From Methylococcaceae bacterium (GTDB taxonomy: Bacteria > Pseudomonadota > Gammaproteobacteria > Methylococcales > Methylomonadaceae): DNA of 34,689 bases. Position numbers and translations under genes: made by a program. The stretch lies in assembly GCA_014191975.1 (NCBI GenBank), contig BJHG01000016.1, forward strand, positions 1 through 34,689, written 5' to 3'. The notes below the pieces were generated by a model. It had not been told where the DNA came from, searched no databases, and saw only the letters and a program-made list of their open reading frames with translations. Positions 27,275 to 32,766 of this stretch are shown piece by piece (the stretch's first letter is position 1; the number at the start of each line of letters is the position of its first letter).

Positions 27275-27967
27275 TTAATAATTCAAATACAAATTTACAG
27301 ACAAAATATCACTCATTCGATCAGCGGAGTTTGGCTTCCGAATGTATTGATTCATGTAGCCAATTTCAGTTTTGATGTTTTTGTCAAAATTGTAACCAAT
27401 TCCTGCAAAAGCCCGATTTTGGTCAAAACCCTCGTCTGCACCGTAATTGGTTTTGTTGATGTTGGCGAAATACTCGTCAGAAAGCACAAAACTAAAATCG
27501 TAAGCCATCGGCACAGATGCTTTAAACATTTGTCGGAATCGCCAACCGACATCACTACCTGTTTCCATAAATCGCTCTTCTAAACGGCTACGACTGGTGA
27601 GTGTAATGTCCGCAAATTTATCGTTCCATAAAACTTGTTGCCAAATGCGATGCTCGTCAAACGGCTTTTTTGCAAAAGGCTCTTCGGTCGGAATAAACGC
27701 ATAGCCGAGCCAAACGCTGACTTTATCCATCACGGTATAACCCAATCCTGCGCGAACCATGCCTTGCGAAAATTGTGAGGAATTGTTGCCGAAACGTCCT
27801 TGACCTTCGAGCCAGTATTTCGCATTTTTCAAATCGGGATTGATAATTCCTAAACTGCCTGTTGCCGTGAGATTGCCCCACGTTTGAAAATCTTCTGCTA
27901 ACGGTTTTGCATTTCCAATTGTTACAAAACCTAAAAATAACGCTGAACCAATTAACAATCTTTTCAT
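27275..27967 (-). CDS. DUF2490 family outer-membrane-like protein
   Basis: A 230-residue exported protein. The ATG at 27967 gives a clean signal peptide (M-K-R-L-L-I-G-S-A-L-F-L-G-F-V-T-I-G-N-A); an upstream in-frame start would read through the preceding gene. The mature part follows the DUF2490 pattern with alternating aromatic beta strands, E-H-R-I-W-Q-Q, S-R-L-E-E-R-F and W-R-F-R-Q-M-F-K, and a C-terminal aromatic-ending strand, which suggests a small outer-membrane barrel. Its start overlaps the stop of the hydrogenase-like remnant by ATGA, so it was once coupled to that gene. Confidence 0.8.
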   Translation of the reverse strand: MKRLLIGSALFLGFVTIGNAKPLAEDFQTWGNLTATGSLGIINPDLKNAKYWLEGQGRFGNNSSQFSQGMVRAGLGYTVMDKVSVWLGYAFIPTEEPFAKKPFDEHRIWQQVLWNDKFADITLTSRSRLEERFMETGSDVGWRFRQMFKASVPMAYDFSFVLSDEYFANINKTNYGADEGFDQNRAFAGIGYNFDKNIKTEIGYMNQYIRKPNSADRMSDILSVNLYLNY

Positions 27968-28360
27968 TTTTCTTTTTCGATTAAGGCTAATAATGCTTTG
28001 AGTAAAACCAAAGGCGTTGGTGGACAACCTGCAATTGTCATATCCACAGGAATCACGTTTCTCACTGCTACACAACATACATAAGACGTGCCAAACTCAC
28101 CACCACAACTTGCACAATCACCCACAGCGATTACCCATTTTGGATTCGGGGTGGCATCGTAAGTTCGCAATAATGTGGTTTGCATGTGGCGCGACACCAC
28201 GCCCGTCACCAATAAAACATCCGCGTGGCGTGGCGACGCAACAAAATGAATTCTGAATCTTTCAATATTGTAAAATAGATTATTCAGCGCATTGATTTCT
28301 AATTCATAACTACGAACCACTGTGAATGTTGCGAATAGCTAAACTGCCCGTGAATTCTGG
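27964..28360 (-). pseudogene. Broken NuoB/HycG-like hydrogenase (Fe-S) subunit
   Basis: A readable part of 118 codons (27964-28320) matches the small-subunit/NuoB family of group 4 hydrogenases and complex I: N-A-L-N-N, A-S-P-R-H-A-D-V-L-L-V-T-G, then G-D-C-A-S-C-G-G and A-G-C-P-P-T-P, which hold two iron-sulfur ligands. The family's N-terminal C-x-x-C motif is gone. Upstream, in another frame, 28360-28322 encodes T-G-S-L-A-I-R-N-I-H-S-G-S, exactly the segment that precedes C-x-x-C in relatives, followed at once by TAG. A net loss of about five bases at the Cys motif explains both. A TGA further upstream cuts the frame again. No other hydrogenase subunits are present. Confidence 0.75.
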
Positions 28361-28490
28361 TCAATACCGACACGGCATAAAATAAAAACCACAGCGTTTG
28401 CTAGAATTCTTTATGTGTTAGTATTGCGATTAGCGTGCCAAGCGATAGATGCACATAACAAATTGAATTGTAATGAAATTTATATTTTAA

Positions 28491-28596: not shown

Positions 28597-29757
28597 ATGA
28601 ATTACATCGCGCTAAAAATGTTGATGGGAGATAAAGGTAAATACATTGGTATTGTGATGGGTTTAACGTTTGCATCCCTTATTATGACCCAGCAACCCGC
28701 AATTTTTATCGGGATACTGGCACGAACTTACAGCTTTATTTCTGATGTTGGCTTGCCTGATATTTGGGTTATGGATGAAAAAGTTCAGTTTGTTGATGAC
28801 ATTAAACCGTTACAGGATACGGAACTTTATCGTGTGCGTGGTGTGTCAGGAATTGAATGGGCGATGCCGATGTATAAAGGTATGTTGAAAGCACGAATGG
28901 GGGATGGGACATTTCAAACGTGCAACGTCATTGGTTTGGACGACACGACGCTAATTGGTGCGCCAGCTCTTTTACTCGAAGGCAAACTCGAAGATTTACG
29001 CCGTAGTGATGGCGTTATTGTCGATATTGATGGCGCGACTGAAAAGCTCGCTAAACCACCTTTGATTGCAGGTGGAAAAAAAATTCCGCTCAAAATAGGT
29101 GATAGTTTAGAGCTTAACGATCATCGTGCTTTTGTGGTCGGAATTGCCAAAGTAACCCGCACCTTTCAATCACAGCCCGTTATTTACACAACATATTCTC
29201 GCGCGAAAAGTTACGCACCGAAAGAGCGAAAATTGTTATCTTTTGTGCTTGTTAAAGCAAAAAAAGGTCAGGATTTACACGAATTAACGGAACGTATTCG
29301 TGCTAATACGGGTTTGACGGCTTATACACAACAAGAATTCAAGGATATGACTTATAACTATTTCATAAAAAATACAGGCATACCGATTAACTTTGGTATA
29401 TCCGTTTTACTGGGTTTCATCGTCGGTGCGGCAATTGCGGGACAAACTTTTTATAATTTTACGCTCGAGAATTTACGCCAATTTGGCGTATTAAAAGCAA
29501 TGGGAACCAGTAATTTTATGCTGCTGCGAATGATTTTATTACAAGCAATTTTGGTTGGAAGTATTGGTTATGGAATGGGGGTTGGATTGACTGCATTATT
29601 TGGATATTTGATGCGGCATTCGATTTTAGCATTCAAATTTCCGTGGCAATTACTTGTATTCAGTGGTGCAGGTGTGAGTTTGATCTGTATGTTTGCGGCG
29701 TTCATAAGTATTTTAAAAGTGATTCGTTTAGAACCAGCCATTGTGTTTAAAAGTTGA
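28597..29757 (+). CDS. ABC transporter permease (DevC/MacB-like FtsX type)
   Basis: A 386-residue exporter permease with the FtsX/MacB plan: an N-terminal membrane span (about 18-40), a periplasmic part of about 210 residues and three C-terminal spans (about 265-285, 315-340, 350-375). The L-R-Q-F-G-V-L-K-A-M-G motif before the last two helices is typical of FtsX permeases. The short N-terminal M-L-M-G-D-K-G-K-Y resembles DevC proteins. With the downstream ATPase, fusion protein and channel it should form a tripartite exporter from inner membrane to outside. The ATG has a GGGAAGA site. Substrate unknown. Confidence 0.88.
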   Translation: MNYIALKMLMGDKGKYIGIVMGLTFASLIMTQQPAIFIGILARTYSFISDVGLPDIWVMDEKVQFVDDIKPLQDTELYRVRGVSGIEWAMPMYKGMLKARMGDGTFQTCNVIGLDDTTLIGAPALLLEGKLEDLRRSDGVIVDIDGATEKLAKPPLIAGGKKIPLKIGDSLELNDHRAFVVGIAKVTRTFQSQPVIYTTYSRAKSYAPKERKLLSFVLVKAKKGQDLHELTERIRANTGLTAYTQQEFKDMTYNYFIKNTGIPINFGISVLLGFIVGAAIAGQTFYNFTLENLRQFGVLKAMGTSNFMLLRMILLQAILVGSIGYGMGVGLTALFGYLMRHSILAFKFPWQLLVFSGAGVSLICMFAAFISILKVIRLEPAIVFKS

Positions 29758-29759
29758 AT

Positions 29760-30440
29760 ATGAATATCGCAGTTCGTTGTGAAAACGTAACTAAAATTTA
29801 CGATACTGGCGATCAAAAAGTCACTGCGTTAAACCGTGTAAATTTGAATATCCTGTTAGGTGAGCTGATGATGTTAGTGGGTCCTTCAGGCTGTGGAAAA
29901 ACGACGCTAATTTCAGTTATCGCGGGAATTCTCGACCAAAATGAAGGCGCGTGTGAATTATTCGGCGAAAACCTATTAACCATGAAGAGCAAAGATAAAT
30001 TACGTTTTCGTGCAACTCAAATTGGTTTTGTATTTCAAGCGTTTAATTTATTACCTTCGTTAAATGCCGCTGAAAATGTATCCGTGCCACTGATTATTAA
30101 CGGTGAAAATCGTCATGTGGCAAAGCGTAAAGCCATCGAGGTTTTAGAACGTGTCGGTTTAGGCGACCGTTGGAAATCCTTGCCAGCACAACTTTCCGGT
30201 GGACAACAACAGCGTGTTGCGATTGCCAGAGCTTTAATTCACAATCCACGTTTAATTGTTTGCGATGAACCAACAAGCGCGTTAGATCATGCTAGCGGTC
30301 ATAATGTCATGAATTTACTGAAAGAAGTTGCAGTACATAAAGATCGAGCATTAATTATTGTATCGCACGATGCCCGCATTTTTAATTTTGCTGACCGCAT
30401 TGCTGAAATGGATGATGGACATATTGTTAAAATTTCTTAG
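29760..30440 (+). CDS. ABC transporter ATP-binding protein (DevA/LolD/MacB type)
   Basis: A 226-residue ATPase that drives the adjacent permease. It shows Walker [10 protein letters not shown] near residue 40, the signature [14 protein letters not shown], Walker [13 protein letters not shown] and switch V-S-H-D-A-R-I. I take the ATG at 29760, two bases after the permease stop; a TTG at 29754 would overlap that stop. The family members nearest in style (DevA, LolD, MacB ATPase) partner FtsX-type permeases, as here. Confidence 0.92.
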
Positions 30441-30457
30441 CCGTTGAGACTCAAAAC

Positions 30458-31399
30458 ATGAAATATACCCTTCCATTATTCGCCGCTGCTGGATTTTTAT
30501 TTGCCTCTTACTCGGTAATCAGCAGTAATAAACCTGTTCCCATTGCGCCTGCATTAGTTGAACCATCATCAGCACCTTATTTAAATTTCATTGCAGGTGC
30601 GGGAATTATCGAACCGAAAAATGAAAGCATCGCCATTGGCTCACCATTTGCTCGATTAGTTAGCAAGGTTACAGTGAAAGTCGGTGATGAGGTCAGCGCA
30701 GGAAAACCACTTTTTTATTTAGATGACCGTGAAAATCAAGCTGAATTAGTGATACGAAAAGCCGATTTAGCAAAAGCCAAAGCAGATGTTTTAGTCGCCA
30801 AAGCCAATGTTGCCGACTCACAATCATTATTTGATTTAGTAAATTCTGTTTCAGATTCACGTGCAATTAGTGGTGAAGAAGTCTTAAAGCGTCTAAATGC
30901 ACTCGTAATTGCCAAAGCAAAATTAGAAAGCGCATCCGCTTTTGTTGAGCAAGCGAAATCGGCAATTTTACAAACTGAAATCACTTTAGATCGTTTAATT
31001 GTTCGTGCGCCGATTGATGCAGATGTTTTGCAAATTAATGTTCGAGCAGGTGAATTTGCCAGTGCGGGTGCATTATCAACCCCACTTTTAATTCTCGGTG
31101 ATTTAAAAACATTGCATGTTCGTGTTGATATTGATGAAAACGATGCGTGGCGATTCAATAAAAATTCAAAAGCCGTTGCGTATTTACGAGGTAATCGACA
31201 ATTCAAAGTGAATTTACAACTCGCTTACGTCGAACCGTTTGTTGTCCCGAAAAAATCATTGACTGGCGACAGCACCGAACGTGTTGATACGCGTGTTTTA
31301 CAAGCCTTGTATCAATTTAATCCTAAAGATCTATCGGCTTACGTCGGTCAGCAAATGGACATTTTTATTGAAGTCAATGATGCGAGTTTAGGTTTATGA
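30458..31399 (+). CDS. Periplasmic adaptor (membrane fusion) protein, HlyD/DevB type
   Basis: A 313-residue adaptor linking the inner-membrane ABC transporter to the outer-membrane channel. An N-terminal signal/anchor (about 1-20) leads to the lipoyl-like half V-G-D-E-V-S-A-G-K-P-L-F-Y-L-D, then a helical hairpin of Ala/Lys-rich coiled coil (about 98-175), then the second lipoyl half R-A-P-I-D-A-D-V-L-Q-I-N-V-R-A-G-E and a beta-barrel part. It overlaps the outer-membrane gene by ATGA, indicating coordinated synthesis of the complex. Confidence 0.9.
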   Translation: MKYTLPLFAAAGFLFASYSVISSNKPVPIAPALVEPSSAPYLNFIAGAGIIEPKNESIAIGSPFARLVSKVTVKVGDEVSAGKPLFYLDDRENQAELVIRKADLAKAKADVLVAKANVADSQSLFDLVNSVSDSRAISGEEVLKRLNALVIAKAKLESASAFVEQAKSAILQTEITLDRLIVRAPIDADVLQINVRAGEFASAGALSTPLLILGDLKTLHVRVDIDENDAWRFNKNSKAVAYLRGNRQFKVNLQLAYVEPFVVPKKSLTGDSTERVDTRVLQALYQFNPKDLSAYVGQQMDIFIEVNDASLGL

Positions 31400-32766
31400 A
31401 GTGGTTAATTTTCACCATGCCACTGCTTTTAAGTGCTTGTGTAGTCGGGCGAGATTACACGTCGCCTGAAATGCCAATTCCGCAAAAATGGAGTGAAAAT
31501 GTAGCAACACAAAAAACGTCTCAAGAATGGTGGAAATCCTTTAATGACGAGGCATTGAATAGTTTAATGAATGAAGCAATTGGCGCGAATTTGAATTTAA
31601 AACAAGCTTTATCACGTGTGAAAGAAGCTCGAATTTTACGTCGCGAAACGATTGCGACAGGGTTGCCCAGTTTGAGCAGTAAAAATGTTGCCAGTCGTCG
31701 GTTTAATAATTCGGCTATAGGTGGCGGAAGTCCTGTCGCGAATCAACCGATTAACATTTTTCAATTGGGTTTTGATGCGGCGTGGGAAATTGATTTTTTT
31801 GGCGGCATTCAACGTGCGATTGAAGCTGCCAATGCATCAATTGACGCAGAAATTGAAAATAGTCACGATGTTTTGTTGACATTACAAGGTGAAGTGGCAA
31901 AAGAATATATTTTATTACGTGCGAATCAACAACTCGCCGCAACACATCAAACCTTACTTTTGGCGCAAGCTGAAACGGTGAAACTCACTCAAGTTCGTCA
32001 ACAAAGTGGCTTGATGAATGCATTGGAGGTCACACAAGTACAGGCGCAATTTGATAATACAGCCGCAAATTTACCGCATTATGAAACTGAAATAAAACAC
32101 GCGATTCATGCGCTAAGTGTTTTACTTGGACGCCCACCGAATGCGTTGGCTAAACGTTTTTCTGATTCTAAACCAATTCCAAATTCGACATTGTTATTCA
32201 CAAATTTACCATCTGAATTATTACAACGTCGTCCCGATATTCGTAAAGCCGAGCGGCAAATGGCAATTGCGAATGCTTATGTTGGTATTGCGACGGCTGA
32301 ACTATATCCGAAAGTGAATTTAGCAGCATTTATTGGTTTGCAAAATTTGAAAATAACCGACTTTACGCCGATGGGGAAATCGTGGTCCAGTGCATCAACC
32401 ATTACGATGCCACTGTTTAATTGGGGGAAGTTACAGGCGAATATCGAAGCCAAAGATGCACAATTTGAACAAGCCTTTTTGGCATATCAATCGATTGTCT
32501 TGACCGCATTTCAAGAAGTTGAAAATGCGCTCGTGTCGTATCGAAATGAATCAGAGCGTTATGACGCTTTATCGCAAGTAATTCGATCAAATCAAATTAT
32601 ATTAGATTTGACCATAGAACGTTACAACAAAGGCTTGACAGGGTTTTTGGATGTTTTACAAGCACAACAAGCCATGTATCAAACCAAAATTTTGCAAATC
32701 GAAAGTTTAGCAATCATTGCACAACAAAATGTAGCGTTACATAAGGCGTTCGGCGTAGAACAATAA
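31396..32766 (+). CDS. Outer-membrane efflux lipoprotein (NodT/TolC family)
   Basis: A 456-residue outer-membrane channel component. A lipoprotein signal is seen at the N-terminus (L-L-L-S-A-C, Cys15 lipidated). Two repeated TolC-type halves follow, with F-Q-L-G-F-D-A-A-W-E-I-D-F-F-G-G in the first and the family motif R-R-P-D-I-R-K-A-E-R-Q in the middle, then G-F-L-D-V-L-Q-A-Q-Q near the end. It completes the exporter formed with the three preceding genes. Its stop is eight bases from the convergent histidine-kinase stop, leaving almost no room for a separate terminator. Confidence 0.93.
   Translation: MKWLIFTMPLLLSACVVGRDYTSPEMPIPQKWSENVATQKTSQEWWKSFNDEALNSLMNEAIGANLNLKQALSRVKEARILRRETIATGLPSLSSKNVASRRFNNSAIGGGSPVANQPINIFQLGFDAAWEIDFFGGIQRAIEAANASIDAEIENSHDVLLTLQGEVAKEYILLRANQQLAATHQTLLLAQAETVKLTQVRQQSGLMNALEVTQVQAQFDNTAANLPHYETEIKHAIHALSVLLGRPPNALAKRFSDSKPIPNSTLLFTNLPSELLQRRPDIRKAERQMAIANAYVGIATAELYPKVNLAAFIGLQNLKITDFTPMGKSWSSASTITMPLFNWGKLQANIEAKDAQFEQAFLAYQSIVLTAFQEVENALVSYRNESERYDALSQVIRSNQIILDLTIERYNKGLTGFLDVLQAQQAMYQTKILQIESLAIIAQQNVALHKAFGVEQ

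Follow-up and report, generated by a model that had tools for sequence, protein, structure and literature searches.

A short open reading frame (ORF) in the draft genome of a Methylococcaceae bacterium is, with little room for doubt, the 3' remnant of hyfI from an Ehr-like complex; a deletion beheaded the gene, and its stub appears to be decaying behind a spared promoter. The window analyzed here, 34,689 nucleotides long, is a whole contig (BJHG01000016.1), one of 131 in a draft genome (GCA_014191975.1, below G000) that has 2.13 Mb and is 97.4% complete. Its closest relatives (best 80 of 289 related stretches) belong to Methylococcales draft genomes and Methylobacter-type isolates. As the comparison with these relatives shows, a deletion of about 3.1 kb fused the hyfF promoter and first codons to approximately codon 38 of hyfI, and there are smaller lesions as well, the loss of a C-x-x-C motif among them. 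With both partner subunits missing, and only two left of four presumed cluster ligands, the remnant should not yield a functional subunit. A spared sigma-54-type promoter, probably activated by an NtrC-type regulator encoded downstream, may still drive a DUF2490 gene and the genes that follow it. Selection would then maintain the flanks while the stub decays. Taken as a whole, this is ordinary gene loss and a known kind of relic, although unusually well resolved.

The ORF lies on the minus strand (positions 28320 to 27964), starts with GTG, and comprises 118 codons whose translation matches Oxidored_q6 (the NuoB family, PF01058) at 2e-26. Its best PDB match is 7z0s_G, the HycG subunit of formate hydrogenlyase, and the closest NCBIfam model is a NuoB subfamily, at 115.5 bits against a cut-off of 116. 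The first-pass annotation had identified it correctly as a hydrogenase/NuoB-like subunit. The same annotation described two frames meeting at the C-x-x-C motif with 7 bases in place of 12, and this is what the minus-strand translation and the alignment of relatives display: one frame reads TGSLAIRNIHSGS followed by a stop, another reads YELEINALNNLFYNIERF onward, and the frame changes at a 7-base site (tagttat, minus strand, 28312 to 28306) between a Ser codon (28315 to 28313) and a Glu codon (28305 to 28303), where relatives have 12 bases encoding C-N-[G/A]-C (32 relatives among the matches listed). All of the best 80 of the 289 related stretches align from query residue 6, which is the Glu directly after the motif, an agreement that exceeds chance by far. 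Ahead of the ORF, the hyfI remnant extends over 28363 to 28321 (minus strand, TGSLAIRNIHSGS), with a one-base shift with respect to the relatives. Of four presumed cluster cysteines, two remain in the ORF, which, with C-x-x-C lost, lacks the full ligand set of a group 4 small subunit.

The upstream end of the remnant was located with a two-part alignment, in which every possible split was scored against four related loci (L031, L004, L026, and L043). The best split falls between 28370 and 28365 depending on the relative, and splits within 6 score units extend from 28380 to 28362; we place the junction between the hyfF start and about codon 38 of hyfI at 28370 to 28364 on the minus strand. By this alignment, the bases missing at the junction number 3,120 with respect to L031 and L004, 3,162 to L026, and 3,138 to L043; the count was 3,121 in a simple script that used fixed anchors. 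A genome search with L031 DNA found pieces of the contig in order: 28545 to 28505 and 28447 to 28398, which correspond to the region just upstream of L031 hyfF, and 28365 to 27273, which corresponds to L031 hyfI from about codon 38 through the DUF2490 gene. Between the junction and the upstream region lies a damaged 5' end of hyfF (28390 to 28371, minus strand, an approximate extent), in which the start codon is unrecognizable and which could be followed in gapped alignment to about position +34 of hyfF. The deletion thus removed hyfF except for its first codons, the entire hyfG, and the first 37 or so codons of hyfI, and a search of the source genome found hyfF or hyfG DNA nowhere else. Local alignments to L031, L024, and L014, which had tried extending hyfI as far as 28417 to 28411, suggested 28417 to 28366 as hyfI sequence; this assignment lost to the 28370-to-28364 junction in the two-part alignment.

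On these comparisons the primary lesion is the deletion of about 3.1 kb, not the change at C-x-x-C, which is probably secondary to it. The C-x-x-C lesion, the one-base shift, and an excess of amino acid changes (see below) look like later decay; a single genome does not prove the order of the lesions, yet the deletion by itself would kill the complex. The first-pass annotation, which saw the subunit as inactivated exactly at its C-x-x-C motif, was therefore right about a real disruption there but not about the main lesion. A reading in which a point-like lesion inactivated an otherwise complete small-subunit gene, whose frame was then kept for translational coupling to DUF2490, does account for the motif lesion and for the overlap between the hyfI stop and the DUF2490 ATG (ATGA), both of which are real. 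However, hyfI is beheaded upstream and its partner genes are deleted, and in a second genome (G016) DUF2490 is intact behind a remnant whose frames are broken several times, so that coupling is unsupported as the reason for retaining the ORF even though the overlap itself exists; we regard this reading as very improbable.

The source is a fragmented draft, as its 131 contigs attest, and one might suspect that the operon is in fact intact and was misassembled or misread. Against this, hyfF and hyfG and their families are missing from a nearly complete genome, the neighboring genes align to those of relatives over nearly their full length, and the sequence around the former hyfF start is divergent and gapped, a sign of age. 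The 3.1-kb deletion, several small lesions, and relics elsewhere in the genome make error unlikely, and we would give it next to no weight.

Relatives with the intact gene, whose search the first-pass annotation had proposed, are common. Full-length hyfI, with an open frame of 169 to 174 amino acids, was found in 13 of 18 genus genomes (G000 counted among the 18), and hyfG is present in the same 13, cut by contig ends in two of them (G002 and G012). Two of the 18 have a broken hyfI, G000 and G016. G008 was considered as a third loss, having neither hyfG nor hyfI, and was rejected as its hyfF runs to the contig end; G001 and G017, where the operon genes were not seen, are only 72% complete and hence uninformative. 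The G016 hyfI tail stands in the same place, begins just past the region of C-x-x-C, and has several small lesions that break it in several frames. Close ahead of it in G016 (contig C49, L206) is a SulP-type gene, the one found before hyfB in relatives, so the ends of its deletion differ from those in the window. In a tree of DUF2490, G016 groups with L029, a locus with the whole operon (support of 86/88), and the window groups with four intact loci (93/92). These groupings, together with the different breakpoints, speak for separate breakages, the tree supports being moderate. A limited search of the literature found no account of the loss of this operon in methanotrophs.

The window hyfI also shows relaxed constraint. 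Over 110 codons it has 9 amino acid changes at 91 columns that are invariant in 12 genus relatives, while each relative, by the same measure, has 0 to 2 changes at 82 to 84 columns. Omega between the window and the relatives ranges from 0.044 to 0.173, and 7 of the 12 values exceed the highest found between relatives (median of 0.040 and maximum of 0.079 in 64 of 66 pairs, with two undefined), a contrast that is rough given that many dS values are saturated. For DUF2490, omega is 0.061 to 0.089 to genus relatives and up to 0.099 to others, a normal range with no sign of relaxation. Rough as it is, the omega contrast suggests that hyfI was lost recently compared with the age of the divergence, which bears out the recent loss proposed in the first-pass annotation. 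A truncated NuoB-like protein that lacks its first two ligands could instead have been retained for a new use, and the open frame, the Pfam match, and an omega well under 1 would fit this. The excess of changes at otherwise invariant positions argues against it, as does the fact that the same short form, which the first-pass annotation had named as evidence against its own reading, was looked for and occurs in none of the 13 genus genomes with the intact gene (13/13), and the low omega mostly represents the time before the loss. We find such a new use hardly credible. The window copy combines the usual marks of a pseudogene: an intact orthologue in place in relatives, truncation, frame lesions, and relaxed constraint.

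What kind of complex was lost can be judged from the relatives. In L029 the operon reads SulP-type gene, hyfB, hyfC, hyfE, hyfF, hyfG, hyfI, and DUF2490, where the hyf and SulP names are labels that we assume for the families found: PF00361 for hyfB and hyfF, PF00146 for hyfC, PF00346 plus PF00329 for hyfG, and PF01058 for hyfI. Of the 10 genus loci examined, 6 have hyfB, hyfC, and hyfE directly ahead of hyfF and 4 do not, and the window derives from this latter, split type. The best matches of the intact proteins are to E. coli formate hydrogenlyase (PDB 7z0s), HyfI-like sequences to HycG (FHL subunit 7, 7z0s_G, 3.9e-34) and HyfG-like sequences to HycE (FHL subunit 5, 7z0s_E, 6.1e-63). Unlike its E. 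coli counterpart, the HyfG-like subunit has no Ni-binding C-x-x-C, and the window copy of the small subunit is a fragment. HyfG, which was aligned against HycE, is present in all of the best 80 of 289 loci; the first Ni motif (L1) is R-x-[S/A]-G-D in the 74 of 80 loci that are readable there and the second (L2) is N-x-[S/A]-Y in the 79 readable, neither of them with C-x-x-C. HyfG thus lacks the two C-x-x-C motifs that define a [NiFe] group 4 large subunit, while intact HyfI has the small-subunit ligands, C-N-[G/A]-C followed by GDC and GCPP (32 relatives among the matches listed).

With a large subunit devoid of Ni ligands, the parent does not qualify as a canonical group 4 hydrogenase. Ehr (energy-converting hydrogenase-related) complexes are described as having group 4-like subunits and antiporter-like membrane subunits with no Ni-Fe ligands (PMC6349859, PMC10284858), and the Hyf-like operon resembles this description in all three respects, a likeness of motifs and gene content. 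The gene content of an Ehr complex is found in L029, antiporter-like and NuoH-like membrane subunits included, the window itself retaining only the hyfI tail. The Methylococcales operon differs from Ehr in being accompanied by DUF2490, the SulP-type gene, and the genes of a two-component system. NuoB of complex I belongs to the same Pfam family as the window ORF, but in contrast to a nuo operon the relatives have C-N-[G/A]-C, fused NuoCD-like large subunits, and HyfB/HyfF-like partners. An origin from complex I was rejected, as the operon of the relatives is Hyf-like and the four PF00361 genes of the genome cluster on contig C19, at least one of them beside a gene that we take to be DabA/DUF2309-like; hyfB and hyfF share only 24 to 37% identity with these four. 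The parent was thus probably a hydrogenase-related, Ehr-like complex and not a [NiFe] hydrogenase, which departs from the group 4 hydrogenase or complex I-like cluster of the first-pass annotation; as the Ni ligands are absent, hydrogenase is the wrong name for these Hyf-like operons, which are widespread in Methylococcales.

The loss of hyf is part of a broader pattern, as this genome has lost other hydrogenase-type genes too. Profile searches gave no match to PF00346 or PF00374 in the source genome, which, with the lack of other hyfF or hyfG DNA, agrees with the earlier description of the ORF as a lone relic. PF00374 was matched in 17 of the 18 genus genomes, the exception being G000, and the only match in G014 is its HyfG. 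HypD is complete in 16 of the 18, a fragment in G000, and not found in G014. The G000 fragment (contig C7, L204, 2371 to 2856) consists of a hypC-like frame, its beginning altered, followed by approximately the first 70 residues of hypD, a stub that we read as a relic of hydrogenase maturation genes. Another contig of G000 (C84, L205, 4673 to 5014, minus strand) has a 114-codon frame with the first part of another PF01058 small subunit, presumably HoxY-like; its NCBIfam matches are below the cut-offs, and a hox small-subunit gene was sought beside hoxH in relatives and was not adjacent there. From the PF00361 search, we judge hyfB to be absent from G000. The four PF00361 genes on C19 (1367 to 9956, L083 to L086) lie close together, at least one of them beside a gene that we take to be DabA/DUF2309-like, and perhaps serve inorganic-carbon uptake. 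A survey of Methylobacter describes group 3d hydrogenase in all the genomes that it analyzed (PMC12810054), whereas G000 is without a recognizable [NiFe] large subunit.

The deletion spared the region ahead of hyfF. In all four split-type loci (L031, L004, L026, and L043), TGGCACGTTAATCGCA is found 50 to 52 bases ahead of hyfF, and the window has kept this site as TGGCACGCTAATCGCA (28440 to 28425, minus strand), with one change in the spacer. It resembles what we assume to be the -24/-12 sigma-54 consensus (TGGCAC-N5-TTGCW-like), and the window matches the pattern once where 0.01 matches are expected, although the pattern was itself drawn from these same sequences. In L210, TGGCACGTTAATCGCA also precedes the SulP-type gene; L212 has a variant of it there, and L211 only an inverted-repeat arm. 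The same arm belongs to an inverted repeat in the window (GGTGCAAAACAACC ... GGTTTTTACACACC, 28538 to 28505, minus strand), aligned from hyfF -165 in L031, L004, L026, and L043 and putatively activator binding; its left arm has no mismatches here, with 0.57 chance matches expected at up to two mismatches, which is near chance. A sigma-70 scan showed no excess (3 found against 5.6 expected), and a terminator scan gave nothing beyond shuffled sequences.

Downstream on the minus strand, the ancestral order continues with an intact DUF2490 gene (27967 to 27275, PF10677 at 2e-58), a DUF347 repeat membrane protein gene (27255 to 26509, from domain and synteny), a histidine kinase gene (25364 to 23943, HisKA and HATPase_c) that also lies downstream from hyfI in relatives, and, again in synteny, the gene of an NtrC-type, sigma-54-activating response regulator (23931 to 22561, Sigma54_activat at 2e-64, Response_reg, and HTH_8), which probably controls the sigma-54-type site. 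The deletion left promoter site, regulator, and DUF2490 in place, so that the regulator may bind and act there. The DUF2490 found behind hyfI is of two kinds in the genus, some loci having about 71 to 81% identity to that of the window and six (L024, L030, L035, L036, L042, and L043) only 32 to 40%, which looks like replacement in place. On the other side, DevC-like permease, ATPase, HlyD-type, and TolC-like genes (28597 to 32766) are divergent from the relic, and wherever a genus relative carries the DevC-like gene as well as hyfI, the two are on different contigs.

Among the points that weigh against our explanation, the 118-residue frame is open and scores well, which leaves room for a residual role of the truncated protein, and the sigma-54 reading draws on sequence likeness. 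A further possibility is that the hyfI tail is a selected leader for DUF2490 and later genes that are still needed, the cell dropping the complex and keeping its switch and an outer-membrane-type partner. Two separate breakages that each leave a hyfI tail directly ahead of an intact DUF2490, and a deletion that also brings the operon's own sigma-54 promoter next to the tail, point in this direction; we consider the idea speculative and rather unlikely. As a decaying remnant behind a spared promoter, the locus offers a readable case of how small-genome methane oxidizers may lose an energy-conserving complex, with a single deletion first, in which promoter and downstream genes survive, and decay afterwards, and the two separate breakages mark DUF2490 as a partner worth testing alone.
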